Assembly: GCF_001428545.1 (NCBI RefSeq)
Contig: NZ_LMHZ01000034.1
Location: forward strand, 4,043 to 55,404
Length of the DNA stretch: 51,362 nt
Source: Noviherbaspirillum sp. Root189
Lineage (GTDB): Bacteria; Pseudomonadota; Gammaproteobacteria; Burkholderiales; Burkholderiaceae_D
Direction: 5' to 3'
Position 1 is the first letter of the stretch. Each line of letters starts with the position of its first letter. A program made the position numbers and the translations under genes. Under the pieces are notes generated by a model. It was given only the letters and a program-made list of their open reading frames with translations, was not told the DNA's origin and searched no databases. Shown piece by piece: positions 8,164-44,471 of the stretch.

Positions 8164-8165
8164 TC

Positions 8166-27529: not shown

Positions 27530-28804
27530 TTACGCAGTCTCGACCAGTTCGGGATTGCGCAGGCTTAGGTCAATGACATTGTGACCAGCTTCGCCCGCTC
27601 GACGGCGCATCAATTCTGCTACGAGCATTGCGGCTGCATAACAGCCCACAAACGGGGCACCCACGGAACGTGTTGCCAGCGTCGTGACACCACAGGGGTC
27701 CGCCCCCTTTGTGACCAACGCTTGGTAGGCAGGCGCGAGCGGCTTCGGTCCAGAAACTACGTTACCTGCCCAGATTCGAGCCGCAGAAGAGGTTCCAGGG
27801 AAGCCGCGGACTCGCAATGCACGGAAATCGCTGTAGCCAGAACCTAAGCCAGCATCAAGCACGGTAGAAAAACCAGCCCCTTCACAAATACGTCGGGCGC
27901 TCGGATTGTCGACGCCGAATAATGCAGTCATTGGTTCTGTCGCCGCGACATGAGTTGCTGCATCGAAACGACGCTCAACAATACGTGTTCCAAATCCACG
28001 ACGCTCCATCCAAGCTGCCACGGTTCTTGTCTTCATACGTTTCAAATCCGAAGCCCCAGACAAAACCGACGTTGTGAGCGTAGATTCAGTCACGATGTCG
28101 ATGTCTTGCAACACAAGCTGTATTGCATGCTGCTGCCGCATCAGACCGAGTGTCCAACAGTAGGCCTGTCCCAAGTGGCCCAAGCCAATAAGCCAGAGGC
28201 CCCGGTCAAGCGAAGCTAACGTGCCGGCAGATGGCTGAGCTAAATCAGCCTTCATTGACCAGAGCGAAAAGCACATCGCTCGGCGTCCTGCATAAGGGCT
28301 GTCTCCGCGAAGAATTGAGAAGGCTTCGCTTACAGCCAATGCACCGGCTGCAACACACGCTGGTACGAAAGCGTCAGCATCTGATGTCGCCTTTCCTCCA
28401 ATACCAAACGACCACCCAACTGCCCAAGGAGCCAGCTTTGAATTACCGACGCCTCCTGCAACGGTACCGATGTAAATTTCCGGCCAAGAACCCGACTGTG
28501 TGGAATTCGAATGCACTCCAGCCCAAGTCGAAAAGTCAGACAGTTGGATGCCTTCAAAGCCATGTACGACGAGTTCGATGTCCCGGGTGCCGCAGATTTG
28601 TACGTTTCCTTGGAAACTTCTCGCCGCAGTGTTGATGACGGTGAGCGCAATTATCTGCAGCGCCGGAGATTCCGCAACGTCGGCTCCCAAAACCACGCGT
28701 ACTCCATATTGAGAAAATGTAGCGATGGCTTCATCCATGGTAGTGGCCTCGCCGCTGTCAACGAGCAGCTTCATCAGGCGGTGAAAAGAGTCTGCATGTA
28801 TCAC
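27530..28804 (-). CDS. bilC: E1-like (ThiF-fold) activating enzyme of a bacterial ISG15-like system
   Basis: 424 residues from GTG 28804, seven bases after AAGGA; the stop of the JAB gene forms part of that site. An N-terminal inactive-looking alpha/beta half (1-195) precedes a Rossmann domain with GLGHLG (207-212) and LQDIDIV. The candidate catalytic Cys371 lies in DPCGVTTLATRSVGAPFVG, the typical E1-family crossover segment. E1 adenylates the Ubl C-terminal glycine and passes it to its own cysteine, then to E2. Last gene of the Ubl-E2-JAB-E1 operon. Symbol by analogy with Bil systems. Confidence 0.88.
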   Translation of the reverse strand: MIHADSFHRLMKLLVDSGEATTMDEAIATFSQYGVRVVLGADVAESPALQIIALTVINTAARSFQGNVQICGTRDIELVVHGFEGIQLSDFSTWAGVHSNSTQSGSWPEIYIGTVAGGVGNSKLAPWAVGWSFGIGGKATSDADAFVPACVAAGALAVSEAFSILRGDSPYAGRRAMCFSLWSMKADLAQPSAGTLASLDRGLWLIGLGHLGQAYCWTLGLMRQQHAIQLVLQDIDIVTESTLTTSVLSGASDLKRMKTRTVAAWMERRGFGTRIVERRFDAATHVAATEPMTALFGVDNPSARRICEGAGFSTVLDAGLGSGYSDFRALRVRGFPGTSSAARIWAGNVVSGPKPLAPAYQALVTKGADPCGVTTLATRSVGAPFVGCYAAAMLVAELMRRRAGEAGHNVIDLSLRNPELVETA

Positions 28805-28813
28805 TATTTTTCC

Positions 28814-29287
28814 TTAGAGTAGTTGGATTCGGTTTTGCGCATCCTGGCCGTAAAAACTAGACCACTGTTTCCCGCCCAAGTAGACATTTACGCTAACGTC
28901 GCTCGGCATTACGTTTCCTTGCGCATAGTGGGGCACGATGAGTGCGACATGCCCCGCTTGCGAAATCATTGGATTGGTTTTGTCGGACACGCTTTGGCGG
29001 GGACCTTTCGGGTGGGTATGTATGTCGCCGACTACCGCCATCCCAAATTCGGAGCACTTACCCCAAAGTTTGGTGAATGCAGCTGTGCTGAGACAGACAT
29101 AGCCCTTTGCCAGTGCGTTCGGGTCCAACGCGTCATAAGGCACCCACATGCGCACACGGCGAGTAAGTCCGTTAGCATCCCCCAAGAGGAAAGCACCAGA
29201 TTCGCGGATACCGCCGCCACGAAGACGTAGGTCGGAAATCAGGTCTGTCCAAAGCGGCGTTGGCATTTCAAGCAGATATGAGTTCAT
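28814..29287 (-). CDS. bilD: JAB/JAMM-domain deconjugating metalloprotease
   Basis: 157 residues. The zinc motif is complete: Glu29 in GIRESGAFLLG, His90 and His92 in GDIHTHPKG, and Ser99 to Asp102 in QSVSD. This is the domain order of bacterial JAB peptidases that cut isopeptide bonds of ubiquitin-like proteins. An alternative start at 29266 (one base after the E2 stop) would give a protein starting MPTPLWTDL and may be the true start, since the family usually begins there. Operon position between E2 and E1. Confidence 0.88.
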   Translation of the reverse strand: MNSYLLEMPTPLWTDLISDLRLRGGGIRESGAFLLGDANGLTRRVRMWVPYDALDPNALAKGYVCLSTAAFTKLWGKCSEFGMAVVGDIHTHPKGPRQSVSDKTNPMISQAGHVALIVPHYAQGNVMPSDVSVNVYLGGKQWSSFYGQDAQNRIQLL

Positions 29288-29717
29288 GGCTTTGCAAAAT
29301 TTCGTGAATGGCTTCGACGTATTGGAGCAGTCCGCGTGATGGGTTCCAGATGAGATGAGGGTGTTCCCCATGCCAGTTGTCATGGCCCACAATGGACTCG
29401 CGGTCGCAGGGGATGTAGAGCGCCGCGCCAGCCTTCCATCCGGGATTGAAAACCTGCGACACACGTCCGCCTCGTGGCCAAAGATGGGCGGCAAGCTGCT
29501 GCTGTGCCTGGTAATCCCAAGGCGTCCCTTGAGGAGGGCGCCCTGGGTAACCAGAGCATTCGAACCGGATGCAGACAGCGTGCCCATTGCGGTCAAAGAC
29601 CTCGATAAATGCATGGGGCCAATTGAGCGAGACGAGCCGCCAACGGCCGCGTGCAGCACCTGCCTTGAATCGGCCAGAGGCGAGGTCTGATTCCAGAGCT
29701 TGGCATTCCTGGTTCAT
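29268..29717 (-). CDS. bilB: E2-like conjugating enzyme of the ISG15-like system
   Basis: 149 residues from ATG 29717, preceded by GAGAGGAA; an upstream ATG at 29765 lies inside the Ubl gene. Bacterial E2/UBC-like pattern: FIEVFDRNG strands, CSGYPGRPPQGTPWD, then GAALYIPCDRESIVGH with Cys104 as candidate catalytic residue, a WHGEHPHLIWNP segment and a closing helix. It accepts the Ubl from E1 and transfers it to targets. Eight bases after the Ubl stop. Confidence 0.83.
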   Translation of the reverse strand: MNQECQALESDLASGRFKAGAARGRWRLVSLNWPHAFIEVFDRNGHAVCIRFECSGYPGRPPQGTPWDYQAQQQLAAHLWPRGGRVSQVFNPGWKAGAALYIPCDRESIVGHDNWHGEHPHLIWNPSRGLLQYVEAIHEILQSHELISA

Positions 29718-29725
29718 ATTTCCTC

Positions 29726-30214
29726 TCAGCCGTTGACGCGAGGCGCGGGGACCAAGTCGAAGCAAACCGAGTCTTGGGGTGCCTTCACCAAGCAGCCGAG
29801 GTGCAAATCCGGGTCAGGACGGGTGTCGGTACCGGAGAGTTGCAACATCAGCTCAGCAGCGTCGGACGGGGTGACGCCGAACTCGTGCGCAGCCCAGCGT
29901 TTGACGCGTGCGATGGTGGTGTTCGGGCGGAATGTATGGTGTGCTTCACGGCCCGCGTAGCGGACATTCACGGTGATGGATTTCAGACGGTGCAGGTGCA
30001 GCCGCAGGCCGTCGGTGATGGTGTCCACCTTATCGATGGCATCTTCGTCATCATCATCTTCGATGAAGAGGAAGAGCATCTCGCCGAGGTGCACTTCTGC
30101 GATACGTGCCAGGCACGCTTGACGGACAGCATTTTTGGAGGCGCCCTCCTCGATTTCGAGGACCTCAATGTCTTTGAGCAGTTCGGATTGAAGGAATACT
30201 TGAGTCATGGTCAT
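29726..30214 (-). CDS. bilA: Ubiquitin-like modifier with two beta-grasp domains (ISG15-like)
   Basis: 162 residues (160 if the second ATG at 30208, better spaced from GAAAG, is used). Domain 1 spans about 10-75; domain 2 spans 78-158 with the strand-helix pattern SITVNVRYAGREAHHTF, IARVKRWAAHEFGV and a hydrophobic SVCFDLVP strand. The chain ends PRVNG, so a free C-terminal glycine is exposed without processing. In known Bil systems this protein is conjugated to a phage tail component and impairs virion assembly. First gene of the operon, 35-41 bases from the shared promoter-like motif. Confidence 0.85.
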   Translation of the reverse strand: MTMTQVFLQSELLKDIEVLEIEEGASKNAVRQACLARIAEVHLGEMLFLFIEDDDDEDAIDKVDTITDGLRLHLHRLKSITVNVRYAGREAHHTFRPNTTIARVKRWAAHEFGVTPSDAAELMLQLSGTDTRPDPDLHLGCLVKAPQDSVCFDLVPAPRVNG

Positions 30215-30248: not shown

Positions 30249-30278
30249 TACTCAATCGACGCATCTCCTTAAAACCCG
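30249..30278 (-). promoter_or_regulatory. Shared composite motif, copy C, upstream of the ubiquitin-like operon
   Basis: Minus strand: CGGGTTT, 12 nt, TCGATTGAGTA. The same two blocks at the same spacing occur at 35060-35089 and 41533-41562. The motif ends 34 nt before the bilA start and lies between the helicase stop and bilA, so it gives the Bil operon its own promoter or operator. The downstream block does not resemble a housekeeping -10, which suits an alternative sigma factor. Confidence 0.7.
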
Positions 30279-30298
30279 AACTAAAACAACAATAATTA

Positions 30299-33200
30299 TC
30301 AAACAGCTGGCAACGACGGGCACAGGTACGAATATGAGCACCGTGCACAAGAATAGCTATCCTTTTTAGGCGCAAAAATTCCTGCCCGCAGACCCAACGC
30401 AATCTTGGTTGCATTAGAGCGCTCAGTGACCCTCACCGGTTTCACTTCTCGCCTCACCAGACGACTGAGGTCAAAAAGCTCCGCTTCCACAATTGGCGTT
30501 GTCGTTGACGTCAAGCTCATCAACTGTCCAAGGATGTTGTCCTGCCCCTTCAGATAGTTCTTCGCTCCACTATAGAAGTCGACACAATGCAATCGACTAC
30601 CACCAGGCGCAGCTACAGCTACTCCCCATGGTAGACCGACTGTCAACTGACGCACGTCAGCGTCCGCTTCGATAAACTTCCCGTTAATACTATGGAGATA
30701 GGAGGCTCCAGCAGCGGCAGCAGCCCAAGCTTGCTCCCAAAGCTGCGGGTCAGCACTTCGCTCGGGTAGGTGCGCCGCTAGCCAGTTCATTTCAAAAGCG
30801 CTAGCAAGCTCGTCATACCTGCCCTGTGAAGCCAAGCTTTTGAGTACGCGTCGAACAAGTCCCCTCGCTTGGAGGGATGGGTTGGGCGTAAGTTCTTGCC
30901 CCATCTCCATCCCAAAACGGTAGAGGTACTCTCGTGGACAACGGTGGTATGCAAGAAACCCTTCGTTTGTGGCTGATGTAGGTGCCTCCGCTGGAGGCAG
31001 GCGCACGAGCCCCGGCGGTTGAGCGAACACCGGTGGGCCGGGACGCGCAACAAGAATCTTCCTGGCGACCGCACCATCAAGTGCTGCAACCGATTCGAAA
31101 CGAAAATCAGCACTACTTTGGTAGATACTAAGTGCATCCTTTGCGCGTGAGACGGCGACGTAGAGCAGGTTATGCTTTTCAACATCCGACTCATATTCGA
31201 ATTGCTTCGGTGAACTCCCGATGGCGTGCGGAGGCAATAAAGTCTTATGTTCTTCTGCTCCGGCATATTCCTTACCGTCCACACTTACCAGATGCACCGA
31301 TTGAAACTCCAAACCTTTGCTTGCGTGGACGGTCATAACCCTCACGCCTTCAATGGCGCCCGTTTCAGGCGGAAGCTCGCGGTCGATATAGACGTCACGA
31401 ATCTGTTGTCGTAACCTGAGTCGGTTGTGTAGTCGGAACAGTGTAGGACGCTTGCGGTCACCGTCACCGACTCGCGCCATATAAACGAACTGCCACTGAG
31501 CGAGTCTTTTTAGATGTCCATCGATACTATTATCGGCAAGGTCCGCCAGCAAAAATCTTTGTTCAAGAAGCAGTTCGCATAGAAAATCCCACGGACTGGT
31601 TGACCATAATGACCTACCAAGTCGCCGTGCTAGGTATCGTCGACTGTCATGACCAGCCTGGGATAACGGCAGGGTTTCCGATTTGAGCCAACCGTTTCGC
31701 TGAAGCGCGCCATCGCGCGAAACCGCTTCAATGGCTGCCTTGACATCTTCACGTGTCATTTGCGGCGTCACCAGCTCGCCAACGCGTAAGAGCGCCCTGG
31801 GGCTCCGCTCTACTACGAGCTGGATAACGGCAAGAATATCTTTGACTTCTGGACGTGCGAGAAGCTCGCCTACATATAGTACAGGCACGCCTGCGTCTCT
31901 GAGTTCCTTTGCTGCCTCTGCGACTGCTGAACCTGTACGAGAGATGATGGCCTGCTGTCGCAATGGTATGCCATTGGCGAGGTCACTGCGCACACCATCT
32001 ACGACGCCTTTCCACATTGAGGGCCGAGAAGTGGCCTGAACGAACGAGGCAGACCTGTTACTGGGGCCTTTCTGGCATTCGGGAATAGCGAGTGGATGGT
32101 TGCCTTGTAGAGGATGGAGTTCCCCCGTCGCCACCGTAACGTCAATGACTTCCTGACAACTTCTGCGATTCATGACGAGGTTGTACTGCTTCGCTGATTT
32201 GAACCGTGTACCGAATCCCAACAAAGCGCCAAGGGAGGCGCCCCGCCAGTGATAGATGGCCTGCCGAACGTCCCCAACCACCCAGAGAGATTTTGCATTC
32301 AACGACAACTGCGCTGTTAAACCCATCATTGCGGATGTCAGGTCTTGAAATTCATCGACAAGCACATGTTGGTAATTGTCGACGATGTCCGAGAACCTTA
32401 CGCGGTCCGCCGCAATAGCCAAGGCGGGAGCAGCCACGAGGTCAACGAAATCAACCATTCCCGCTTTTTGAAGCGCCGCTTGATATGTTCGAGCGACTGC
32501 TGCCACGTCGCGGAATCTGGCGCGTTCGTCATGGTCAGTCGTCGTACTCAATGCCTTGGCAAGATAGTCGTCAATACTGACCAATTCCTCTTTGATTCTT
32601 AGACAAGCATCGATTACCGGCGGTAGCCATTCATAAGGGTCGTCCGTTCGCTTGAAATACTCCAGTTTCACCCCGACGAGCGCTTTAGCCGTTGCCGTTA
32701 GCTGTGTAATCTTGTCTGCAACCGCAACATCTTGAGTAACGCCAAAGTGCTGGTAATACTTTCTCAAGAACTCCAAGCCAAAAGCGTGGAAGGTGCCCGC
32801 CCAAATTTCTGATGCCCCTTTTACGCCTGCACGCTGCAGCCTATCTACAAGCTCTGCAGCAGCCTTATTCGTGAAGGTCAAAACCAGAATCTTGCGCGGG
32901 TCAACGTTGTCCTGCTCAATTAGCTTCTTGACACGATGGATAAGTGTGGTCGTTTTGCCTGTTCCCGGCCCTGCAACGACATGAACATGCTTCTCCGGTG
33001 CGTTGATTGCGGCCACCTGGTCGGGACTCGGCGGAGGGAGCGGAGCAGGCGGCTTCGGAACATAGGGCGGCAGGAGGACAGCGTCAAGAACCTGTTGACG
33101 CGCAACCTCGAGAGGCAGACCAAGTTCTTTGGCGATTTGGCGAGGCCCTTTACCCGAAATGAACATGGCCCTCGCCACATGGCGGGGGAGAAGTAGCTCT

Positions 33201-33607
33201 CGGCCGAAGACGTTCTTCTGAAGCTCGTCCCGTTCACGCGCCCCATAAGCCTCGACGTATGCTGAGGCCGGCGAGGAAGGCAGGAAGCCGTCTGCATTGC
33301 GATAAACGGTGTCTTCATCGATATCAGGGTCAAGTCTAAAGTGCCCGAGCTCGTGAGCAATCAGATAGGCCTTTTCCGGCCAACTATAGTCCTGCCTGCA
33401 ATATATCCAACCTTCGGAGCGCCGAATGGTTGCATTTGCGCCCTTGAGCACACCACTGGTATGAGGAACTTCTTTGACGCCGAGATTGAGGATATCCTCG
33501 ACATGCACGAGCAAATCCTTAGTCGATACTGGCGTGTCAGCTTGGCCCCCGACCAACTCAATCCGAAGCTTCAGAGCCTCTTCACGTGCCCGGAGAAACG
33601 GGCTCAT
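30299..33607 (-). CDS. ImmA/IrrE metallopeptidase - UvrD-type helicase - FeS nuclease-like fusion
   Basis: 1102 residues. (1) Residues 1-150: ImmA/IrrE peptidase with HELGH (85-89) and the NVFGRELLLP helix. (2) Residues 190-860: superfamily 1A helicase with AGPGTGKTT (212-220), VLVDEFQDLT near 430, TVHASKGLEF near 780 and LYVAVSRAKDAL near 835. (3) C-terminal AddB/Cas4-like module with YHRCPREYLYRF near 915 and CARCSYSYLC at the end, four cysteines that could hold an iron-sulfur cluster; its nuclease strand reads VDFYSGAK, lacking the usual lysine, so cleavage is doubtful. ImmA/IrrE proteins cut HTH repressors after DNA damage. It starts two bases after the HTH-like gene. Confidence 0.88.
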   Translation of the reverse strand: MSPFLRAREEALKLRIELVGGQADTPVSTKDLLVHVEDILNLGVKEVPHTSGVLKGANATIRRSEGWIYCRQDYSWPEKAYLIAHELGHFRLDPDIDEDTVYRNADGFLPSSPASAYVEAYGARERDELQKNVFGRELLLPRHVARAMFISGKGPRQIAKELGLPLEVARQQVLDAVLLPPYVPKPPAPLPPPSPDQVAAINAPEKHVHVVAGPGTGKTTTLIHRVKKLIEQDNVDPRKILVLTFTNKAAAELVDRLQRAGVKGASEIWAGTFHAFGLEFLRKYYQHFGVTQDVAVADKITQLTATAKALVGVKLEYFKRTDDPYEWLPPVIDACLRIKEELVSIDDYLAKALSTTTDHDERARFRDVAAVARTYQAALQKAGMVDFVDLVAAPALAIAADRVRFSDIVDNYQHVLVDEFQDLTSAMMGLTAQLSLNAKSLWVVGDVRQAIYHWRGASLGALLGFGTRFKSAKQYNLVMNRRSCQEVIDVTVATGELHPLQGNHPLAIPECQKGPSNRSASFVQATSRPSMWKGVVDGVRSDLANGIPLRQQAIISRTGSAVAEAAKELRDAGVPVLYVGELLARPEVKDILAVIQLVVERSPRALLRVGELVTPQMTREDVKAAIEAVSRDGALQRNGWLKSETLPLSQAGHDSRRYLARRLGRSLWSTSPWDFLCELLLEQRFLLADLADNSIDGHLKRLAQWQFVYMARVGDGDRKRPTLFRLHNRLRLRQQIRDVYIDRELPPETGAIEGVRVMTVHASKGLEFQSVHLVSVDGKEYAGAEEHKTLLPPHAIGSSPKQFEYESDVEKHNLLYVAVSRAKDALSIYQSSADFRFESVAALDGAVARKILVARPGPPVFAQPPGLVRLPPAEAPTSATNEGFLAYHRCPREYLYRFGMEMGQELTPNPSLQARGLVRRVLKSLASQGRYDELASAFEMNWLAAHLPERSADPQLWEQAWAAAAAGASYLHSINGKFIEADADVRQLTVGLPWGVAVAAPGGSRLHCVDFYSGAKNYLKGQDNILGQLMSLTSTTTPIVEAELFDLSRLVRREVKPVRVTERSNATKIALGLRAGIFAPKKDSYSCARCSYSYLCPSLPAV

Positions 33608-33608
33608 A

Positions 33609-34217
33609 TCACTCCACTTCCTTGTCGAGATGGAGCAACCGCGTTGCTTCTTCCCCTGATATTCCGGCGGCCCGAATAGCTTCTTCCCAACTTACAGGCT
33701 GTGAATCAACGCCGGGCTTTCCATCCGAGCTGAAAGACTGTTTTGGCTGTAGTTGGAAGTTCAACTGAAAAACATTAGCTAAAGCCGCGAGCTGCACCTG
33801 AAGTTTTTCCGCTAAGCGCTTTATTAGCACGTAAGGTGCAGATACCTCCCCACTGATGACTTGATTGAAAAGGTCAACGTGTTCGCCCAAGCCGATTTGA
33901 CGTGCAAATTTCCGAGCAGCCGGTCCCCTGCACTGCTTCAGGGCAGTCCTTGCTTCGGCCACGGGGCCGGTGTTTGCATGTACTGCATTCAGCATCAAGC
34001 TACGCGTTGCGTTGAACAGCTCAGCATCGAATACGATTTCGTCATCCGATTCACCTTCATCGAACATCAATGAGATTTCCGCGATTTGAGCTGCGTACTG
34101 CGGATGAATGAGTGTGAGTTCTTTCCACTGTTGCGCAGAAGGATGCGGATGCGCTGCAAGAAATGCCTCAATTACCAAAGAGGCTTCTTTCTCCGTCAGA
34201 TTAGTTTGCTCAGACAT
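33609..34217 (-). CDS. HTH-like/acidic partner protein between sigma factor and ImmA-helicase
   Basis: 202 residues, acidic in the first half. Residues 120-160 (VDLFNQVISGEVSAPYVLIK, then RLAEKLQVQLAALANVF) resemble the helices of an XRE-type DNA-binding domain, the usual substrate type of ImmA/IrrE peptidases. It overlaps the sigma-factor gene by 8 bp and precedes the fusion protein by 2 bp, so all three are made together. It may be an anti-sigma factor or repressor cleaved by its neighbour; that is inferred from context. Confidence 0.6.
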   Translation of the reverse strand: MSEQTNLTEKEASLVIEAFLAAHPHPSAQQWKELTLIHPQYAAQIAEISLMFDEGESDDEIVFDAELFNATRSLMLNAVHANTGPVAEARTALKQCRGPAARKFARQIGLGEHVDLFNQVISGEVSAPYVLIKRLAEKLQVQLAALANVFQLNFQLQPKQSFSSDGKPGVDSQPVSWEEAIRAAGISGEEATRLLHLDKEVE

Positions 34218-35028
34218 GCCCGTATCCTTTTTTCAGCGCTGAAAGAGCTCCCTTCAAATACTTCTGAACAGAGCTTTCACTAAGGCCCATCACGGCACCA
34301 ATTTGCTTATGGGTCATTTCTTGAAAATAGTGAAGTGTCACGGCCGTTCTCTGCTTTTCGGGAAGTCTCAAAATAGCCGCGCGACATTTTCTAACCATTT
34401 GCTTTTGTTCCAGAGCTTCGTCAGGCCTAAGCGTATAGTCATCTTCGACCTGCTCAGTCAGTGATAGCCCACTACCATCTTCGTCAGAAGACGAAGTAAT
34501 CGCGTCCACTGACGGCGCCGAGTTCTTTAATGCGATTTCAGACTTGAACCAGTCCAGAAGACGCATTTTGACGTACTGGCCAAAAGTGACTTCAGCAAAG
34601 CTGACTTCAACTTTGCTTCGGAAGATACGGTCTATCACATAGGCTACGGCTTCGACGCTTGACTCGCTGCTGCGACTCAGGACTCCGAGCCAATTTATCT
34701 CGGTATGGAAAAAGCGGCCAAGTTCTAATACCAGTCGCTTGTTCAGGGCGAGCGCAATAGCATTTTGGACGCGTGCTACTCCGCCAAAGTTACTGCGAGC
34801 CAAGGTAACCAAAACTTCGGATGGAATATATCCTGGCTGGTTGTACTTCTCGATAGCCAATGCGGAAAGCAGCTGGTCATGAGTCATCTTGAAGACTGCT
34901 GCGAGCCACTTTTCATGCTCGGGCCGGCGAACGTAATTGGTCAAACACTCAGCTTCTTCCGCATCGGTGTCTACATCAATGCCAACCTCTTCCTTAACTA
35001 CCTCTTTTGGAACCATATTTTTCGTCAT
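34210..35028 (-). CDS. Island-encoded sigma-70-family sigma factor
   Basis: 272 residues from ATG 35028; a TTG at 35034 is closer to the strong AAGGAGG and could be used instead. The C-terminus is a clear region 4: ILRLPEKQRTAVTLHYFQ, then MTHKQIGAVMGLSESSVQKY with its HTH. Residues 60-175 form an atypical, long region 2 (FGQYVKMRLLDWFKSEIA), with an acidic linker to region 4. The N-terminal 60 residues are acidic and unique. It should direct RNA polymerase to special promoters; the repeated motif at its own upstream edge is the obvious candidate. Other reading: a phage-like regulator. Confidence 0.8.
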   Translation of the reverse strand: MTKNMVPKEVVKEEVGIDVDTDAEEAECLTNYVRRPEHEKWLAAVFKMTHDQLLSALAIEKYNQPGYIPSEVLVTLARSNFGGVARVQNAIALALNKRLVLELGRFFHTEINWLGVLSRSSESSVEAVAYVIDRIFRSKVEVSFAEVTFGQYVKMRLLDWFKSEIALKNSAPSVDAITSSSDEDGSGLSLTEQVEDDYTLRPDEALEQKQMVRKCRAAILRLPEKQRTAVTLHYFQEMTHKQIGAVMGLSESSVQKYLKGALSALKKGYGHV

Positions 35029-35045
35029 CGACAATAGACGTCTGA

Positions 35046-35136
35046 TGCCCCTCCTTGTGTACTCAATCGAGGCAACTCAGTGAAACCGGAAAACTTTATG
35101 GATTATTTTCGCATACTGTTCTCATAATGATGACTC
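35046..35136 (-). promoter_or_regulatory. Shared composite motif, copy A (91-bp repeat), upstream of the sigma operon
   Basis: Minus strand: CCGGTTT, 12 nt, TCGATTGAGTA (35060-35089), followed by AAGGAGG and the sigma gene. It is part of a 91-bp segment that aligns without gaps to 41519-41609 (about 74 of 91 identical by eye), including an upstream block TATGCGAAAATAA (35103-35115). The ordering upstream block, two-part core, gene start suggests an autoregulated promoter with an activator site. Confidence 0.72.
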
Positions 35137-35323
35137 AATGAAGATTCTGCCATGCAATTTGCCTTGATTTGATTCCTAGAAATGCAGCTAAAGCATATTA
35201 GAAGATTCAATTATGGCAATATGTGCTGTATCCGTTTTAACTTTCATATCATGAATAAGAACGATTCCTTCACCGGCCACGTGCGGACAGTCGAAGCACT
35301 TGCCTAAATTGCAACAATTACCT

Positions 35324-35372
35324 AAGCTAGCAATAGCTTTTGCAGCCACCGTCGCGTGGCTGCTTTCTTTTT
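35324..35372 (+). terminator. Tandem hairpins with T-run: intrinsic terminator or end of a small RNA
   Basis: AAGCTA-GCAA-TAGCTT (35324-35339) is a perfect 6-bp hairpin with a GNRA loop. It is followed at once by GCAGCCAC / GTGGCTGC (8-bp stem, 35342-35363) and TTTCTTTTT. This is a good intrinsic terminator 13 bases before the next plus-strand gene. No ORF leads into it, so it may end a non-coding RNA starting within 35140-35320, or act as an attenuator. Confidence 0.65.
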
Positions 35373-35384
35373 GAAGAGACCACG

Positions 35385-36119
35385 ATGAGCTTGGTAGCTA
35401 AATACAACCGGCGTGTAATGGATATTTGGGAAGAATTTGGAACCACGCAACCGCGAATGCCCCTCCTTCTGCCAGAGTTGAACGAAAATCCGGAATTGGT
35501 CATTGTCGGCATGAACCCTTCGTTCAATACTGAATGGCTCGACAAGCAGCTCAAGGACAATAACTGGCCTTCAGGCGGACCTTGGACGACTGACTCCCTG
35601 TTTGTATGGGACCAGAACGCCAGGAGCCGCATGCCTCACGTCATCGAGTTTGAGGCTTTTGCGAAAACAGCCTATGCCAGCTACTTCTCCCGAGTACAAA
35701 ACTTTGCATCAGCAGTTGGCTGCGCCAAACAATGGGAGCACTTAGACTTGTTTCTGATGCGGGAAACCTCGCAAAAAGAGGCCCTTAAGATGGTCTTGGC
35801 CAAAAAGCGACCTATTGGCCAACTCAATAAGTTTGGCCAAGTGCAGCTGCAGCTCTTCACAGAAACACTCGTCGACATGCAACCTAAAGTTGTCGTTGTA
35901 GCAAATGCGACCGCGGCGGGTCTTGCCAAACAGATGCTCGGCCCTAGCCATCAGGTTGGCGAGCCCGCAGCGCTCACGTTCGAATCGCTGCCCAACACTC
36001 GTTTTTTCTTCAGCGGCATGCTCTCCGGGCAGCGTTGCATGGACAACTTCTCTTTGGAACGCCTCGTGGCTCAGGTGAGCGCCTATTTCCAGCAATTGAA
36101 CATCAAAGGCAGTAACTAG
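35385..36119 (+). CDS. Uracil-DNA-glycosylase-superfamily-like protein
   Basis: 244 residues from ATG 35385, with GAAGAG upstream; an earlier ATG at 35340 falls inside the terminator hairpin. ELVIVGMNPSF (about 40-50) resembles the first-strand active-site loop of the UDG/MUG superfamily (GxNPS). VVVVANATAAGLAKQMLG near 185 is the second core strand and helix. The other catalytic motif is not obvious, so base removal cannot be claimed. Cytosolic. Its place between defence modules suggests action on modified or damaged phage DNA. Confidence 0.6.
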   Translation: MSLVAKYNRRVMDIWEEFGTTQPRMPLLLPELNENPELVIVGMNPSFNTEWLDKQLKDNNWPSGGPWTTDSLFVWDQNARSRMPHVIEFEAFAKTAYASYFSRVQNFASAVGCAKQWEHLDLFLMRETSQKEALKMVLAKKRPIGQLNKFGQVQLQLFTETLVDMQPKVVVVANATAAGLAKQMLGPSHQVGEPAALTFESLPNTRFFFSGMLSGQRCMDNFSLERLVAQVSAYFQQLNIKGSN

Positions 36120-36159
36120 AGGAGGACCGGGCTTCTTCGGAAGGCGAGCGGGTCTGCTA

Positions 36160-36609
36160 ACGCAGAAAATTTTCAGACAAAGAAAACCTTACAGGCCGAC
36201 TCGCAGTGCAAGGAACTCGACCAAAAGTTGAAGGTGTTGCTGGACTTCAAGGGTAAGTATCCGAGCTTCAGCCAGCTTTATGGCTACATCGCGCAACTGA
36301 TTATTTAGGCGACTCGGAACTGGAATACTTTTCCGCCTTCGCCAAGCAGTTGGCGAAGCACTAGACGGTGTGCCGCCGGAGCAAGTGGATGTTTCAGGCT
36401 TGGTGCTGACGGGTTACGACATCAAGGCATAGGTAAAACCGGATGACGAGTTAGATAATGCCGATTTGATTCTTAAACCGATTGGCCCAGACGGTGGCGG
36501 TAAGGCCATGACTCTGGACTACTTGAGTGAAATCATCATCAAGCTAAACAAGTTGTTCGGCGAAGCGACGCCGTTGGCAGTTGCTAGTTGCGGCGCGGTC
36601 GTTGTGTAA
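36160..36609 (+). pseudogene. hsdR: Remnant of a type I restriction HsdR subunit (C-terminal region)
   Basis: Three frames joined end to end read like HsdR C-terminal helices. The first has ADSQCKELDQKLKVLLDFKG and YPSFSQLYGYIAQLI then stops. The second has GDSELEYFSAFAKQLAK then stops. The third has DGVPPEQVDVSGLVLTGYDI, a stop, and LSEIIIKLNKLFGEATPLA. At least two frameshifts and an in-frame TAG are present, and the motor and nuclease parts are absent. No hsdM or hsdS is nearby. A decayed former restriction locus. Confidence 0.75.
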
Positions 36610-36647
36610 TGTAATAAATCTGCGTTCCAATCTATCACCGCCCAACG

Positions 36648-37562
36648 ATGACAACCTTACAAGACTTAAGACCAACGACTAGAGAGCGCGTCCAGGACAT
36701 CGTCGACCGCCTCGGCATCGCAATGACAACTAAGTATGACTGGTGTTTCAGTAATACCGGCGGCCCATATCTGGTCAATATCTGGCATGACAACATGTAC
36801 GAAGAGAATGGCGACATTTATTTCGTCGACCGCACCTCGGACTGGGCGGACGAAAACCGCGCAACGGCCATTCAGGTGCAGCTGAACCGTGCGAGCGCAG
36901 TGTCTTCACTAATCCAGACGGCCTACTACACCAAAGCGCCTGTTAATGTTGCCATTCTCGATGGCACACGCAAAACAGTTGGGCTTCGGGAAACCAGCGA
37001 AGCAAAACAAAGAGAGCTCGACTCAGTCCTCTGGTATCCGCATCATAAGGACAAGGATGGTCGCATTATCGTCATTCGGGGCAGACCGCAACCGGATGAC
37101 TTTGACCCCTACAACGAAGAACAGCAAGACCAAAAGCAGACGCCTGTGCCACCGCCGCCCAATAAGGTGGAAGGTTCAGGCACAGCGATTTTTGAGCGCG
37201 ACTCGGAAATAGTAAAAGCAGTGAAGCAACGGGCGGTCAACGGTTGCTGTGAGTTTTGCGGGAAGGAAGGCTTTAAAACGGCAAGCGGTGGATTTTATCT
37301 AGAAGCGCATCACGTCATCCCATTGAATTGCGGGGGACCGGACGACGTTCGCAACGTGGTGGCAATCTGTGCCGATGACCACCGCCGGGCGCATTTTGGT
37401 GAGGACCGACATGCCGTTCGCGACAGAATGATTTGGGAGGTTCTCGCTGTCCATTATCCGAACGACGTGGCGTTTTTCGAGGCAATGGACGAGAAGTCGC
37501 TCGACATTAAACGTAGCGACTCGGGGCAACGCAAACTCGAAGACAACCGAATAGATAACTAA
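36648..37562 (+). CDS. HNH endonuclease-domain protein (McrA-like)
   Basis: 304 residues. The N-terminal 170 residues form an unrecognised alpha/beta domain, possibly for recognising modified DNA. A Pro-rich linker (PVPPPPNK) follows. The C-terminal HNH domain has CEFCGKEGF near 207, LEAHHVIPLNCGG near 226 and VVAICADDHRRAHFG near 245, with zinc cysteines and catalytic histidines present. Domain order is that of type IV, modification-dependent restriction enzymes such as McrA. Convergent with the DprA-like gene. Confidence 0.82.
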   Translation: MTTLQDLRPTTRERVQDIVDRLGIAMTTKYDWCFSNTGGPYLVNIWHDNMYEENGDIYFVDRTSDWADENRATAIQVQLNRASAVSSLIQTAYYTKAPVNVAILDGTRKTVGLRETSEAKQRELDSVLWYPHHKDKDGRIIVIRGRPQPDDFDPYNEEQQDQKQTPVPPPPNKVEGSGTAIFERDSEIVKAVKQRAVNGCCEFCGKEGFKTASGGFYLEAHHVIPLNCGGPDDVRNVVAICADDHRRAHFGEDRHAVRDRMIWEVLAVHYPNDVAFFEAMDEKSLDIKRSDSGQRKLEDNRIDN

Positions 37563-37617
37563 AGTCAAAATTTGAAGCGGCCGCCCTTGTCGGCAAAGTA
37601 AGTGGCTGACTCGAGTA

Positions 37618-38565
37618 CTATGTCAGTAAGCCTGCCTCAATCGCTTCGTAGTCGTTTTTCGACCTAAGAACGATAAGGCGCTCCAAATCTGACTCTTGGC
37701 ATTTGAGTATTGAGAGCTTCTCGGTGACACTGCCAGTGGTCAATGCAATGTTTCCGCGTGCTTTCTCATATCCACTTGTAATGTCTGCACGCGTTGCAAC
37801 TGGAACTATTAGGAATCGCCCGTATCGGAGTGCGGCGCGGCTTGCATGCAGGCTACCACCGCCCCTGTCAGACTGCACCATCACCACAGCCTTCGAAAGA
37901 GCCGCTTGAATCTTATCTCTTTCTACAAACTGGCCAGAGAACGCGGGTGTCCCATAGCCATACTCTGATACTAAAAGGCCGCCTTTCTTCACGATGGAGT
38001 CAGCAAGAGCAGCATTCGATTTCGGATAGACTGCATCTAGTCCATGAGCCATAACAGCTACCGTCGAGCCATCATGGTTCAGAGCCTCTTTGTGGGCAAC
38101 CGAATCAAGACCAAGCGCAAGCCCACTAACTATTTGCCATCCTGCGTTCCCAAAGTACTGAGTGATTCGCCGAGCGGTTTCAATCCCATGCTCGGATGGC
38201 TCGCGTGTGCCGATGACCGCAATAGCCTTCGCGGAGAATCGCGCCGGGTCCCCGGCGACATATAGAAGCGCAGGTCTGTCTTCCGTTGCGGCTAAAAGTC
38301 GTGGATAGGCCGGGTCCAACGGGCTCAAGATGGTATGACCACGCTCTGACGCTTGTCGAAGGTCTTCCTCCGCCGCCTTTAACGCCTTCTCATAGACTAA
38401 GCTTTCAGGCTGCAGCGACGCGAGTTCCGGGAACGTTTCAGCCAACTCTTCTAGCTTGACCTGAAAAAACAGCGGTTCCATGGCCAAAGCTTGGAGGGCC
38501 TTCCGGCCCACTCCCTTTACCTTGCTCGCAAGTAGTACACGAATTGTGTAGTCAGATACAGACAC
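37618..38565 (-). CDS. DprA/Smf-like protein of a PRTase-associated conflict operon
   Basis: 315 residues from GTG 38565, which shares one base with the previous stop (TAGTG). N-terminal helix-hairpin-helix KVKGVGRKALQAL. The Rossmann-like DprA core shows AVIGTREPSEHGIETARRI, SGLALGLDSVAHKEAL, VMAHGLDAVYPKSN and LVSEYGYGTPA, followed by VMVQSDRGGGSLHASRAALR. Classical DprA loads RecA on incoming single strands. In this operon, with phosphoribosyltransferases, it more likely senses DNA or a nucleotide ligand. Not the housekeeping dprA, judging by its island context. Confidence 0.83.
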   Translation of the reverse strand: MSVSDYTIRVLLASKVKGVGRKALQALAMEPLFFQVKLEELAETFPELASLQPESLVYEKALKAAEEDLRQASERGHTILSPLDPAYPRLLAATEDRPALLYVAGDPARFSAKAIAVIGTREPSEHGIETARRITQYFGNAGWQIVSGLALGLDSVAHKEALNHDGSTVAVMAHGLDAVYPKSNAALADSIVKKGGLLVSEYGYGTPAFSGQFVERDKIQAALSKAVVMVQSDRGGGSLHASRAALRYGRFLIVPVATRADITSGYEKARGNIALTTGSVTEKLSILKCQESDLERLIVLRSKNDYEAIEAGLLT

Positions 38566-40034
38566 TATTGGATATCTTCCGTGTGGTTGCAGGACGGTGT
38601 CTGATTGTACCCGGTGCAGCCCCAGAACCGGTTGCCATATCGCTTGTTGGTACGGCGAACCATGGGTCTGTTGCAGACTCCGCAGAATTTCGGATGCATG
38701 TCCTCCGTATAGGCACAACGCTCGTCTTCCTCTTCCTCAAAGTACCCGGAACATCCCCAGAAATGAGTGCCGTCGGCCTGATTGCGGCGAATCCGCATCG
38801 GACGAGTACATCGCGGGCAACTTTTGTCATCCTGCTGGACGCTCACCGTTTTGGCAAAAGCCAATCCAGTCACCGAGGCCGCCCCGGCGGTTTCCAGCAG
38901 GTCGATAGCGCGCGCGATAGTTGACCCAGTAGTTACTACGTCGTCGATTACGAGAATATGCTGGCCGCGAATGCGTTCGGCAGCACCTTCCGCGAGCTGG
39001 AGTGCCCGTTTGGCTTCCTCCGCCCGCTGGTCGGCTGAGAGAGTCTTCTGCTTCAGCGCATCGGCGACATACCGCAGAAGCGATGCATCAAAGCTCACCC
39101 CGACGAACTCCGGTCCCGCAGCTTGTTGAACGCGGCATAGGAAATTCTCCAAGCGCGGGTGGCCACTGGCTTTTCCCGGTATTACAGTGACTAGGTCAAA
39201 AGGATGCTCATTTTGGAACAGATATTCAGGTGCTCGTCGGAGGACGTGCAACACAACGTCGACCCAATACGGCTGAAGCTCAAACTGCGGGATACTCTCT
39301 TTGCGCGCGATGTCTTGTGACAGCGCATGCGCCTCGTGGAGCGTGGCCGTAACCACTGCCTTCTGGCTGTAGTAGCGACCAAGGCACAGAATCCGCAGTT
39401 GTTCAGAGACGGTTATCACATTGCCTGAGAGGTCGAGAGGAAGGAAATAGGTTGCGCTACGGTGGAAATCAATAGACTGATGCTCTGCAGCCCGCTCCGC
39501 GAAGAAGCGGAAGTCGCTTGGGTCATCAAAGTAGTCAATCAGATTTCGTGACGACAAGGTTGCCGCTGGCGCCGTCGAGACGGTTTCCCGCGATGCCCAA
39601 GTCGGAACGACCGGCAGAACTCCAGCGTTGTATGCAGCGACAATATCGATGTACTCGTCACCGACATAAAGCACGTGGGGGCCTGGGTCCTCCCCAAGTC
39701 GCTCGAGCGCAAGCAAGATTCCATCGGGCGCCGGCTTTGGCTCCTTGCCTGCACGCTTAACGTCGGAGTAAGTTACAACCACGTCAAAGTCGTCTCGCAT
39801 CTCCAAATGGGCAAGAATGCGTTCGATATAGCCTCGTCCTGCATTGGACACAATCCCGAGCAGGACACCTCGTTCCTTCAGCTCCCTAATCACTTCCGGA
39901 ACGGGACGATACGGCGCGACCTGCGCCATCGTCTCCGGTGTAAGCAAATCGTATTCGAGAGACTCACGTATCTCCCGGACCGACCGCGTTTTCACCAAGG
40001 TATTGTCGAAATCGAACAAAACAACGTTTGCCAT
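38565..40034 (-). CDS. HAD phosphatase - phosphoribosyltransferase - double zinc-ribbon fusion
   Basis: 489 residues. (1) HAD domain, 1-160: nucleophile motif FDFDNTLVKTRS at residue 7 and YVGDEYIDIVAAYNAG near 125. (2) ComF-like PRTase, about 180-400: PRPP loop HILVIDDVVTTGSTIARAID near 365. (3) Two topoisomerase-type zinc ribbons at the end: CPRCTRPM with FWGCSGY, then CGVCNRPM with FWGCTGY. It likely makes or breaks a phosphoribosyl nucleotide and binds nucleic acid through the ribbons. It overlaps the DprA-like gene by one base. Confidence 0.82.
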   Translation of the reverse strand: MANVVLFDFDNTLVKTRSVREIRESLEYDLLTPETMAQVAPYRPVPEVIRELKERGVLLGIVSNAGRGYIERILAHLEMRDDFDVVVTYSDVKRAGKEPKPAPDGILLALERLGEDPGPHVLYVGDEYIDIVAAYNAGVLPVVPTWASRETVSTAPAATLSSRNLIDYFDDPSDFRFFAERAAEHQSIDFHRSATYFLPLDLSGNVITVSEQLRILCLGRYYSQKAVVTATLHEAHALSQDIARKESIPQFELQPYWVDVVLHVLRRAPEYLFQNEHPFDLVTVIPGKASGHPRLENFLCRVQQAAGPEFVGVSFDASLLRYVADALKQKTLSADQRAEEAKRALQLAEGAAERIRGQHILVIDDVVTTGSTIARAIDLLETAGAASVTGLAFAKTVSVQQDDKSCPRCTRPMRIRRNQADGTHFWGCSGYFEEEEDERCAYTEDMHPKFCGVCNRPMVRRTNKRYGNRFWGCTGYNQTPSCNHTEDIQ

Positions 40035-40089
40035 CCTGGTTTCCTAGTTCGCCAATTTTTGCATTGAACCGTGCTCCGTCTCCACAGAC

Positions 40090-41223
40090 TCACGCCAACA
40101 GCGATGTCAACGCGGCTTGGCTTCCAAAATTGCTGGTTCCGGGAAAAGGGCTAGACGCCCAGATGAAGTCTGACGCTTGCACTGGAGCGAACGGGTTAGT
40201 CTTCAGCTCAATTTGATAGGCACTAAGCTGGTTTCCAAATTTGCCCAAAGCGATACCGGTAACTGACGCCGCTCCAGCCTTGCGCAGGAAGGCTGCGGCC
40301 ACCCCGAAGGAGACGCCATACGTTGTACAGTCATCGACCACCACCACGTTCTTCCCGCGAAGCTTATTAGCGTAGAACGGATTCAAGTGAATGGTTGTGA
40401 CCTGCCCTGTAGGGTCCCGCCTATCTCCACTAAAGCCGCCACTGGACCGTTTGGCTGAAGGCGTATGTCGAATGAACAAAGGCTGACCGCGCTCCGCATT
40501 TCGGACGCGCGAAGCCGTCGTGCGCAGTCGATGGGTGAAGTCGCTAAGAGTCTCGTTGTCAGAGTTGTCGCTGCTGGATGATGGGTAGACGCCCCAGACG
40601 AGGTCTGGGACGACACCGGCGCCCATAAACAACATGGACCGAGCGGTCACTGCGAGCAGTGCATTCAAGTGAACGCCTCCGTTTTTGACAGTCTGTTTGA
40701 TTTTCCCTGCAAAAACCTGCTGGTCGATTCCCTTGCCAATCTGCGATAGGTCCGCCAAGACTTTTACGCTGTAGCCCGGTGTGTCTCCTTGGTACCACCA
40801 GTGCCCCTGCCACCCCGCAGTCAACGCGATGACTTGTTCAAGCTCAGTAGGATTAGCGGCTCGAATGCCCAAGTCTGCAACGTACTTATTGTTTGACCAC
40901 CCAGCACCAATCACTACCGCATGACCGTTCTTCGCCATTTGGATGTCGTCCAGTTTTGAGGCTAAAACCAGTACGTCGTGATTCTGTAACTTGAAGTGCT
41001 TAGCATTATGCGAGACCACCCCTCCATCTTGTCTTCCTGGACTGCGAAGGAATTGAACCGCAGTGTTAGCAAACGCTTGCTTGAACCAAACGGGTTCCGG
41101 GTGGTTCGACAAAAGAGCGACCGGATTTCCCGCCGTCGCGAAGTCAGCCAGCACTTTGACAATAGCCGGATGGGGTACCCCCGCAACCAAAACAGAGTCT
41201 GGAGATGTCAGCAGAATTTGCAT
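40090..41223 (-). CDS. HAD-like / phosphoribosyltransferase-domain protein
   Basis: 377 residues from ATG 41223, preceded by GAGGA with six-base spacing; a longer frame to 41295 is not favoured. N-terminal part (1-120) has alternating strands and helices like a HAD fold lacking a clear DxD nucleophile. The C-terminal PRTase domain has the PRPP loop KNVVVVDDCTTYGVSFGVA near residue 310, matching the sister gene's motif, and the shared segment AGAASVTGIALGKFG. First gene of the operon with the HAD-PRTase and DprA-like genes. Exact substrate unknown. Confidence 0.78.
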   Translation of the reverse strand: MQILLTSPDSVLVAGVPHPAIVKVLADFATAGNPVALLSNHPEPVWFKQAFANTAVQFLRSPGRQDGGVVSHNAKHFKLQNHDVLVLASKLDDIQMAKNGHAVVIGAGWSNNKYVADLGIRAANPTELEQVIALTAGWQGHWWYQGDTPGYSVKVLADLSQIGKGIDQQVFAGKIKQTVKNGGVHLNALLAVTARSMLFMGAGVVPDLVWGVYPSSSSDNSDNETLSDFTHRLRTTASRVRNAERGQPLFIRHTPSAKRSSGGFSGDRRDPTGQVTTIHLNPFYANKLRGKNVVVVDDCTTYGVSFGVAAAFLRKAGAASVTGIALGKFGNQLSAYQIELKTNPFAPVQASDFIWASSPFPGTSNFGSQAALTSLLA

Positions 41224-41518
41224 ATAGAGTCCTCGCAATTTTTGAGTGAATGCACGGAGCCACGCCGAAACGTTGCAGCCAACGACACGACGCACCGTCT
41301 CAGCAATTGGTTCAGTTTCTAAAACTTGGGCGAGTGCGGAAGCGCAGATATGCCTCCCGTAACCGAATCCCAGTGCAAAATTTTAGGTTTCTGACCGCAC
41401 CGTTTTGCTTATCCACATGTTAAACATCCATAAATAAAGACTATCAACGTAAAAAACCTATAAATTTCTCGTCTTACGGTCGCAGATTTTCAGTTTATGC
41501 AGCTATTTCCACGTTGAT

Positions 41519-41609
41519 TGCCCTTCTTTCTGTACTCAATCGAGGCAACCCAAGCAAACCGGAAAACTTTTTGAGTTATTTTCGCATATTGTTTTAACCG
41601 TGATGATTC
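41519..41609 (-). promoter_or_regulatory. Shared composite motif, copy B (91-bp repeat), upstream of the DprA/PRTase operon
   Basis: Minus strand: CCGGTTT, 12 nt, TCGATTGAGTA (41533-41562), plus the upstream block TATGCGAAAATAA. It aligns without gaps to copy A. It points toward the PRTase operon but lies about 310 bases from its start codon, so either the transcript has a long leader or the copy is a recombination scar. The leader (41224-41518) contains no supportable gene. Confidence 0.65.
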
Positions 41610-43568: not shown

Positions 43569-44471
43569 TCATGCCCAGATGTCGTCCAAGTCCTTCGCTT
43601 TGAGAAGTTTATCTCGTTGGGCATAGCGCGGTGACTGCATATTTACATTGCTGTACTCGGTTCTGCATTTTGGTTCGATTTTCTGAGCTGGCCCTTTGAA
43701 GGTCAGAAGGAACTTTCCAGAATTTTCGTATGGGGTGATTGAAGCGATTTCTGCGACATGGGTCACTGCGCCTACTGGGGCTACTTGGTATGCCGCGATG
43801 TACTTCAGCTTCGGAATTTGTTTTGCGCCTATTCGAATGGCGAACCAACAGTTCTCACCGATGAAGCGCTTGTTAAAACCTTCTTCTCTTGCAGGCACAA
43901 TAACTGTGTCAAAGTTGCCGTTCCCGGAATCCTCTACGTTTGCTGCGTGGAGGCTCGCCTCGAGTTCAGCAGCTTTGGGAGCAGAAAATGCATTGATTCC
44001 AAGCATCGGAAGGATGAGCAGCATATCGGATAGGAACGCCTTAGCTGTAGCTTTCCCGGCCGGTGACATTGATGGTGCTGTAGGACTATTCTTGTTCAAT
44101 AAAATGGCACGCCCATATGTTTTTGCTTTTTGAATAAGCTCATATTCCAAGAACTGCACTTCGGTCTTACCAATTTTGTGGTTTTTGTCCACAAAGTAGA
44201 CACCCCACTCCCAACCTTCCTTGTTGGCCACATGGTTTTTTAGCCGCTCTCCAACAGGGTCCGCCTCACCAATGTATATCGCTTCCTCCGATACGTTACC
44301 GACAAGGACGTAGACGCCAGCTTGCTTGAAACTCTCATCTGCTTTCAGCTCTTGCAATTGCTCCCGTCTGAACACCACACCGAAACCAGACCAATTCGAC
44401 TTGTCGATGTGACGCACGCCCTCTGGGTCCCCAGTAGTTGAGAAAATTGTGATTGAGAATGGTGTCGACAT
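43569..44471 (-). CDS. GIY-YIG nuclease-domain protein
   Basis: 300 residues from ATG 44471; a GTG six bases earlier is possible. N-terminal 50 residues precede the GIY-YIG core: AGVYVLVG and AIYIGEADPVGERLKNH with the catalytic Arg, and the conserved Glu in FLEYELIQKAK. The C-terminal 160 residues hold a second domain of the type often linked to this nuclease, ending ... AKDLDDIWA. No introns or RecG-like partners nearby. A stand-alone defence or restriction nuclease is possible. Confidence 0.82.
   Translation of the reverse strand: MSTPFSITIFSTTGDPEGVRHIDKSNWSGFGVVFRREQLQELKADESFKQAGVYVLVGNVSEEAIYIGEADPVGERLKNHVANKEGWEWGVYFVDKNHKIGKTEVQFLEYELIQKAKTYGRAILLNKNSPTAPSMSPAGKATAKAFLSDMLLILPMLGINAFSAPKAAELEASLHAANVEDSGNGNFDTVIVPAREEGFNKRFIGENCWFAIRIGAKQIPKLKYIAAYQVAPVGAVTHVAEIASITPYENSGKFLLTFKGPAQKIEPKCRTEYSNVNMQSPRYAQRDKLLKAKDLDDIWA

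Follow-up and report, generated by a model that had tools for sequence, protein, structure and literature searches.

The window analysed here is a stretch of 51,362 nucleotides from contig NZ_LMHZ01000034.1 of Noviherbaspirillum sp. Root189 (positions 4,043 to 55,404, forward strand). It contains an island in which a two-block motif, C[C/G]GGTTT-N12-TCGATTGAGTA, stands before a gene for a sigma-like protein, before a BilABCD operon and before a Shos-like operon. The motif is most probably the -35/-10 promoter of the sigma factor encoded in the operon itself, with a rough probability of 0.78. The sigma gene would be autoregulated from site A, the same factor would drive BilABCD from site C, between the helicase gene and bilA, and a duplicated sigma promoter (site B) would have come to stand before the Shos-like operon, so that the three modules would form one regulon. 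The narrower claim, that the motif is a sigma-dependent promoter, is held with still greater confidence. Position, spacing, orientation, rarity and pairing of the sites were obtained by comparison of loci, and from them we infer recognition by the sigma factor.

Motif copies in the window and the genome

Three exact copies of the motif occur in the window, all on the minus strand. A scan of the window reproduced the number, positions and strand given in the initial annotation, which was made from the sequence alone. The sites and the three genes of the upstream module are:

Site A, 35060..35089, minus strand: upstream of the sigma-like gene, core TTCCG-N17-CGATT, putative autoregulatory promoter
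Site C, 30249..30278, minus strand: within the 84 nt that separate the helicase stop codon from bilA, putative Bil promoter
Site B, 41533..41562, minus strand: about 309 nt before the ShosT-like phosphoribosyltransferase (PRTase) gene, probable duplicate of site A
34210..35034, minus strand: sigma-like protein, 274 amino acids (aa); Pfam region 4 significant, region 2 not recognised by sequence
33609..34217, minus strand: partner, 202 aa; all-helical low-confidence model, no Pfam or NCBIfam family, proposed anti-sigma factor
30299..33607, minus strand: fusion of an M78 (ImmA/IrrE) peptidase and a UvrD-type helicase, 1102 aa; HELGH at residue 85, putative damage sensor and protease

The gene order is sigma-like gene, partner and M78-UvrD fusion, followed directly by bilABCD. 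Site C lies 34 nt from the bilA start (30214), and site A lies 25 nt from a TTG start (35034) or 31 nt from an ATG start (35028) of the sigma gene. Site B is 309 nt from the ATG at 41223, the likely start of the PRTase gene, and 237 nt from a GTG (41295). The distances of 34, about 30 and about 310 nt given initially agree with these values.

No match beyond the three copies is present in the window at up to three mismatches. In 100 dinucleotide shuffles of the window the mean number of matches was 0.05 and the largest 1, and the 6.15-Mb genome (90 contigs) holds no exact copy other than these three. At three mismatches the genome yielded two further matches, against five with a reversed control. 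In a separate search, a pattern with an off-register 13-nt spacer, which serves as a chance control, gave six matches. A scan of 15 genomes of the genus matched the window's own genome only, as did the exact motif among 392 genomes of the family. At one mismatch 5/392 family genomes were matched, the own genome with its three exact copies and four others with a single one-mismatch match each (reversed control 0); the similar spacer of these four suggests one conserved coding region. The claim that the copies are not due to chance is borne out, a chance origin being rejected on the basis of the shuffles, the whole-genome count and the 392-genome scan. Flagellar sigma-28 and sigma-54 promoters were considered and rejected, as their consensus does not fit the motif.

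The initial annotation had named widespread copies without the sigma gene as a finding that would speak against it. The exact motif is confined to one of the 392 genomes; the strict pattern misses the sigma-bearing relative Pseudoduganella guangdongensis, which has a site, and therefore the scan informs on near-exact copies only, with diverged sites escaping it.

Sites A and B are located inside a 91-bp stretch that is 81% identical (74/91), so that one probably arose from the other by duplication. Site C shares mainly the two blocks with them, and its position is that of the gap site in relatives.

Relatives of the module

A protein search with the sigma-like protein was positive in two of 195 family genomes, the own genome and P. 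guangdongensis (39% identity). Among 399 genomes of the order it found the own protein and five weak partial matches (28-31%), which were taken as other sigma factors, and in plasmids and phages nothing was found at E 1e-8. A partner profile matched 3/392 family genomes and 1/369 class genomes, the own genome included in both. An early partner search of plasmids gave nothing, nor did a search of viral contigs with sigma and partner alignments. The sigma family diverges fast; it became accessible with BilB as query.

P. guangdongensis (genome G155; loci L007, L008 and L015) and a second relative, Oxalobacteraceae AB_14 (L014), carry the same three-gene module, with sigma proteins 38-40% identical to that of the window. 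Since the two are close (sigma 91% identical), they count as one lineage. Both have AGTTTTCCGGTT-N12-CTCGATT upstream of the sigma gene, and in the gap between the helicase and the ubiquitin-like (Ubl) gene both have a diverged site with the spacing TTTCCG-N17-CGATT, followed by a further conserved stretch. The downstream operon of P. guangdongensis encodes a Multi_ubiq-E2 protein and a JAB-E1 fusion and is not Bil (Pfam); that of AB_14 looks alike by sequence. Divergent trypsin-like and NACHT/STAND-like genes are located upstream of the Pseudoduganella sigma gene (L008 1830-7812).

The BilB search returned 22 plasmid records, of which 18 were examined; the other four resemble repeats of those by organism and match. 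In ten of the 18 the complete three-gene module immediately precedes bilA (L044-L050, L052, L053 and L060, the last with the same protein accessions as L044). An insertion sequence (IS) interrupts the sigma gene of L054, and L055 has sigma and partner with another gene in the place of the helicase. At the module position L057-L059 have a helix-turn-helix (HTH) gene and an ImmA/IrrE gene, CapH/CapP-type control by annotation, and L051, L056 and L061 have no such module before Bil. The sigma proteins are strongly diverged, several pairs being without BLAST similarity, whereas helicase identities, near-copies aside, are 28-62%. A search with the M78 part of the helicase matched 88 plasmid records, and seven were examined (L063-L069). 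The module of L063 precedes a Bil operon (4/4 PADLOC Bil models), five of the seven precede multiubiquitin-ThiF-DUF6527 operons by annotation (one of these five, L068, is from a cyanobacterium), and an IS follows the module of L067. A hidden Markov model (HMM) built on sigma proteins of 12 loci recognised the first gene of the module in all seven (E 7.7e-26 to 7.9e-42); it had no match in L043 (see below), L051, L056-L059 and L061. A partner search added L062, from Aquincola, with a short BilA-like gene downstream.

A relative in which no sigma gene was found, L026, encodes at 7606-8697 a longer partner (363 aa), whose match to RHH_5 (8e-5) is weak and does not reach the curated cut-off, followed by an M78-UvrD fusion. 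It is possibly a repressor version of the same circuit.

Paired sites

The first set consisted of 12 loci: the window, L008, L014 and nine plasmids, with two near-copy pairs among them. In all 12, a common two-block site (TTCCG, 16-18 nt, CGAYT-like) occurs both within the 150 nt upstream of the sigma gene and in the helicase-Ubl gap, with a pair score reached by 0-5/200 shuffles and by 0-3/200 random stretches of the coding region of the same module. The site varies between loci and agrees within a locus: CGATCAA occurs at both sites of L046, CGACTT at both sites of L047 and L062, and an 18-nt spacing at both sites of L048 and L049. In a permutation of 16 loci, from which the near copies L014, L049 and L069 were dropped beforehand, the own pairs summed to 223, against a mean of 191.7 and a maximum of 212 in 20,000 permutations. 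The pair test omitted L054 (IS in sigma), L055 (thought to be a control), L060 (copy of L044) and L067 (IS downstream).

Taken singly, the own-pair test failed in seven of 19 loci (L062-L066, L068 and L069), where the score was reached by 10 to 193 of 200 shuffles. The failure of L062 is due to a late annotated start, and both of its sites match the pattern exactly. The gaps of L063-L069 hold TT(A/T)CCG-N16-17-CGATT sites in 7/7. A consensus of TTCCG-N16..18-CGAYT fits 17 of 21 gaps with 0-1 mismatch, which 1-15/200 shuffles of each gap reach. The 17 include all eight loci added later (L062-L069), which are not a blind test, because the consensus was written after they were inspected. The gaps of L050, L052, L053 and L054 deviate by 2-3 mismatches.

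Site distance and sigma distance are correlated over 12 chosen loci (r=0.58, reached by 0/10,000 permutations), a value to which shared descent and hand-picked sites contribute. L050, L014 and L063-L069 were left out and the short annotated L062 protein was used. These choices and the hand-picking of sites bias the within-locus distances; the pair test is the unpicked test.

The 16-18 nt spacing of the blocks, their direction and their position, mostly near gene starts, are what a sigma factor would be expected to read as -35 and -10 elements. The proposal of a dedicated sigma factor that activates several defence operons gains good support from these locus-specific paired sites next to sigma genes in distant bacteria.

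Specificity of the sites

Seven plasmids (90-816 kb) were scanned whole with patterns from their own loci or kin at up to three mismatches. On all seven, matches with 0-1 mismatch were confined to the region before the sigma gene and to the gap. The Xanthomonas, Aquincola, Rhizobium, Pseudohalocynthiibacter and Roseovarius plasmids have two exact sites each, and two Variovorax plasmids with the same module have four each (one exact, three with one mismatch), three of them in tandem before the sigma gene. The tandem copies of L044 are at 424-573. Extra three-mismatch matches numbered 2 and 4 on the Variovorax plasmids (reversed control 3 and 4), 0 on the Xanthomonas plasmid (control 1), 2 on the Rhizobium plasmid (control 0) and 0 on the others.

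The CapH/CapP-type Bil operons L057-L059 have no site (three mismatches, reached by 164-175/200 shuffles), and neither has L056 (reached by 189/200). In L051 and L061 the best site has two mismatches, reached by 84 and 78 of 200 shuffles. L055, without the helicase, keeps both sites, in the gap with no mismatch (0/200 shuffles) and upstream with one (6/200), and no site was found in the searched stretches of L026. Because L055 keeps the sites without the helicase, and L026 and the Bil operons without the module have none, the site accompanies the sigma gene in these loci.

A sigma-70 scan of the window gave no minus-strand match over the three sites and one plus-strand match over site C, with seven matches in total against 7.6 expected.

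Proteins of the module

Region 4 of the window's sigma-like protein matches Pfam Sigma70_r4_2 (9.3e-15), and the protein is above the cut-off of NCBIfam sigma70-ECF. A Foldseek search with its weak structure model gave 12 matches at E<=1e-3, all apparently sigma factors by title and chain, over 195-346 columns with TM-scores of 0.35 or less. Two of them are integrative-model entries, which we take from their names to be RPSD and RPSB.

The partner belongs to no Pfam or NCBIfam family, and a fold search with its weak model gave nothing significant; the non-significant matches include small HTH repressors and controllers. A CapH-like HTH repressor that could serve as M78 substrate was thus not recognised in the partner by Pfam, NCBIfam or fold search, and a hidden HTH would be compatible with these searches. 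The HEXXH motif of the peptidase, starting at residues 79-88, is present in 13/13 helicase fusions examined; an M78 peptidase with HEXXH is shared with CapH/CapP-type systems.

Judging from gene order, the partner of about 200 aa would hold the sigma factor as an anti-sigma factor. The M78 domain fused to the UvrD-type helicase would destroy it upon DNA damage or exposure of single-stranded DNA (ssDNA) and so free the sigma factor, with the helicase part contributing damage sensing. This step, a partner acting as anti-sigma and released via the M78 domain, is tentative and rated slightly below even odds. The module takes the place of HTH and ImmA/IrrE genes in sister Bil operons, which supports a regulatory role and not the anti-sigma step.

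A phage contig with the motif

Two different patterns, run against the viral collection, both matched the IMG/VR contig L025 and nothing else. At 6008-6037 on its minus strand it has AAAGTTTTTCCGGTTT-N12-TCGATTGAGTA, 31 nt before a 134-aa phage gene (phrog_2293). Capture, hijack and decoy are candidate explanations. A match of ZC08 to the phage contig was discarded as a motif link, since it is coding and elsewhere. The initial annotation had proposed that the motif be sought in the whole genome and in related islands; the genome has no further exact copy, the relatives have diverged paired sites, and this one phage contig has the motif with no sigma gene detected in 20,000 of its bases.

Evidence against the sigma-promoter reading

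A number of observations weigh against the reading of the motif as promoter of the encoded sigma factor. Region 2 of the window protein is without a Pfam match, and its structure model is poor (predicted local distance difference test score, pLDDT, 53.7). Among ten relatives scanned, Pfam region 4 is above cut-off in L064 and L067 only, for which reason the first genes of the module are regarded as fast-evolving sigma-like proteins; no Pfam sigma match at all was found in L050, L053, L055 and L066. Site B is about 309 nt away from its gene. The three-fold repetition on which the initial annotation was built stands as three exact copies, which are not fully independent, sites A and B being probable duplicates. 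The own pair was best or tied best of its row in only 9 of the 16 loci. In L063-L069 the upstream site was not better than chance, even when sought between positions -260 and +120 relative to the annotated start, and L050, L052 and L053 fit the consensus poorly, though their own two sites match. Five three-mismatch matches are present elsewhere in genomes G710, G155 and G778 (one or two each; reversed control none). Despite its motif, the phage contig L025 gave no sigma HMM match in 20,000 of its 21,048 bases.

A last such case is the Rhizobium Shos-like locus L043, in which no sigma gene was detected and which has a one-mismatch site at about 5905-5931, approximately 80 nt before ShosT. The site overlaps the end of the upstream open reading frame (ORF), and its score was reached by 4/200 shuffles in 149 nt and by 14/200 in 300 nt. 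It may be either a chance match or a real site.

Alternative explanations

The best-surviving alternative is that the motif is an operator of the HTH-like partner or of another repressor, with M78 cleavage relieving repression as in CapH/CapP and sigma-70 promoters transcribing the genes. The module does stand where the sister Bil operons L057-L059 have HTH and ImmA/IrrE genes, small HTH repressors and controllers are among the non-significant fold matches of the weak partner model, the longer partner of the sigma-less L026 has its sub-threshold RHH_5 match, and the partners diverge about as much as the sigma proteins. However, the site is directional, lacks dyad symmetry, and has a sigma-like 16-18 nt spacing and a fixed orientation to the gene; L026, with partner and no sigma gene, has no site, and no sigma-70 match overlaps the three sites on the minus strand. 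An operator is therefore considered unlikely.

More improbable is that the blocks are a promoter for another host factor (the housekeeping or another sigma factor, or an activator) with an incidental linkage to the sigma gene. The phage contig has the full motif 31 nt before a phage gene, and the part of it that was examined yielded no sigma gene; the Shos-like locus L043 has a one-mismatch site with no sigma gene detected, and Pfam does not identify every first gene of the module as sigma. On the other hand, none of the other 391 family genomes has the exact motif, near-perfect sites are confined to the module on seven plasmids, and the type of site changes with the type of sigma, with no site at Bil operons that lack the module.

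That the copies are a mobile or recombination element (repeat or attachment site) left by insertions is suggested by the identity of sites A and B over 91 bp and can be set aside almost entirely, because the relatives share mainly the two blocks and their spacing, and site C and most of the relatives' sites share little else and stand in the same place relative to genes.

Genes of the window

The operons downstream of sites C and B consist of the following genes.

29726..30214, minus strand: bilA, ubiquitin-like protein; PADLOC BilA 3.5e-50
29268..29765, minus strand: bilB, E2-like; PADLOC BilB 6.6e-57
28814..29659, minus strand: bilC, JAB peptidase; PADLOC BilC 5e-58
27530..28804, minus strand: bilD, E1-like; PADLOC BilD 2.3e-144
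40090..41295, minus strand: ShosT-like phosphoribosyltransferase; PADLOC ShosT 8.1e-47, likely start ATG 41223
38565..40034, minus strand: HAD hydrolase with phosphoribosyltransferase and zinc ribbons, between the ShosT- and ShosA-like genes
37618..38718, minus strand: ShosA-like DprA-family protein; PADLOC ShosA 6.7e-78

The bil genes were recognised by PADLOC models in the order bilA, bilB, bilC, bilD. The start of bilC is probably further downstream than the ORF start, because the PADLOC match spans ORF residues 126-279. The ShosT- and ShosA-like genes, as in ShosTA, are in one operon, with the extra HAD-PRTase gene in between.

The same island contains a GmrSD-type (type IV restriction-like) gene at 46721-48415 and a PADLOC PDC-S14 gene at 43569-44477. 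A secreted-looking protein (44635-45465) is a DNA/RNA non-specific endonuclease by Pfam, and a similar, likewise secreted-looking protein at 50352-51113 looks paralogous by eye. Beside the island, 18607-19572 encodes the N-terminal part of a Mg-chelatase/ComM-type gene (Pfam). A fragment near the module of L014 (7626-8051) resembles, by eye, the C-terminal end of a ComM-type gene. Since the window holds an N-terminal part and L014 a C-terminal-like fragment, both islands may be inserted in comM.

Comparison with known systems

Extracytoplasmic function (ECF) and other alternative sigma factors are typically encoded in an autoregulated operon in which the sigma gene is followed by the gene of an anti-sigma partner, and their promoters have a 16-18 nt spacing. 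The window's sigma differs in its longer N-terminal region without a recognised region 2 and in its putative regulon of defence modules. In the CalpL/CalpT/CalpS system of type III CRISPR, a cyclic-nucleotide-activated Lon-like protease releases a sigma factor from its partner as a defence signal. The freeing of a sigma factor by a protease would be common to both systems; the protease is Lon-like there and an M78-helicase fusion here. The published BilABCD system (Hor et al. 2024) reportedly consists of four genes; the target operon of the window agrees with it by PADLOC models, and the upstream sigma module is an added part.

The following comparisons are limited to the accessible parts of the papers cited. 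CapH/CapP and Deinococcus PprI(IrrE)/DdrO likewise have an M78-type metallopeptidase next to a regulon of defence or damage genes, and the PprI and CapP peptidases are activated by ssDNA and cleave a regulator (PMC10904395, PMC13373217). Those systems act on a repressor, whereas here a sigma-like protein with a family-less partner, a peptidase-helicase fusion and a promoter-like site are present. CapK and CapS form a pair of regulators encoded upstream of Bil, Bub and CBASS operons, and parts of them resemble anti-sigma kinases and anti-anti-sigma (STAS) proteins (PMC13373217). The pair shares the position upstream of Bil operons with the module of the window; unlike the latter, it involves, in the passages considered, no sigma factor but only the anti-sigma resemblance, CapS being a DNA-binding repressor (PMC13373217). 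RptR is the repressor of a defence island (PMC12255303), and CapW/BrxR, CapH/CapP, CapK/CapS and RptR are all repressor-type regulators of immune operons (PMC13373217, PMC12255303). The main text of PMC1779556 mentions neither UvrD, a helicase nor a sigma factor. Searches of the open-access literature, which leaves out most subscription papers, brought up no description of a sigma module before Bil or multiubiquitin operons, and this absence is weak evidence.

Biological meaning

The initial annotation had proposed an island-specific regulon. The design appears to be general to the sigma-partner-M78/UvrD module, and what seems special in the window is the third copy, which would add the Shos-like operon. 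A wider picture, doubtful at present, is that of a portable immune switch: the M78-helicase would sense phage-damaged DNA or ssDNA and destroy the anti-sigma factor, the sigma factor would amplify itself and fire ubiquitin-like systems, unrelated defence operons such as Shos would join by promoter duplication, and at least one phage, with the same promoter, might use or titrate the alarm. If the reading of the motif as promoter of the encoded sigma is true, a dedicated sigma factor would provide positive, self-amplifying control, in contrast to the repressor systems named above, and the spread of a single short promoter could coordinate several defence systems. Thanks to the matched pairs of sigma factor and promoter the reading is open to immediate testing, and the site may be used to predict members of the regulon.

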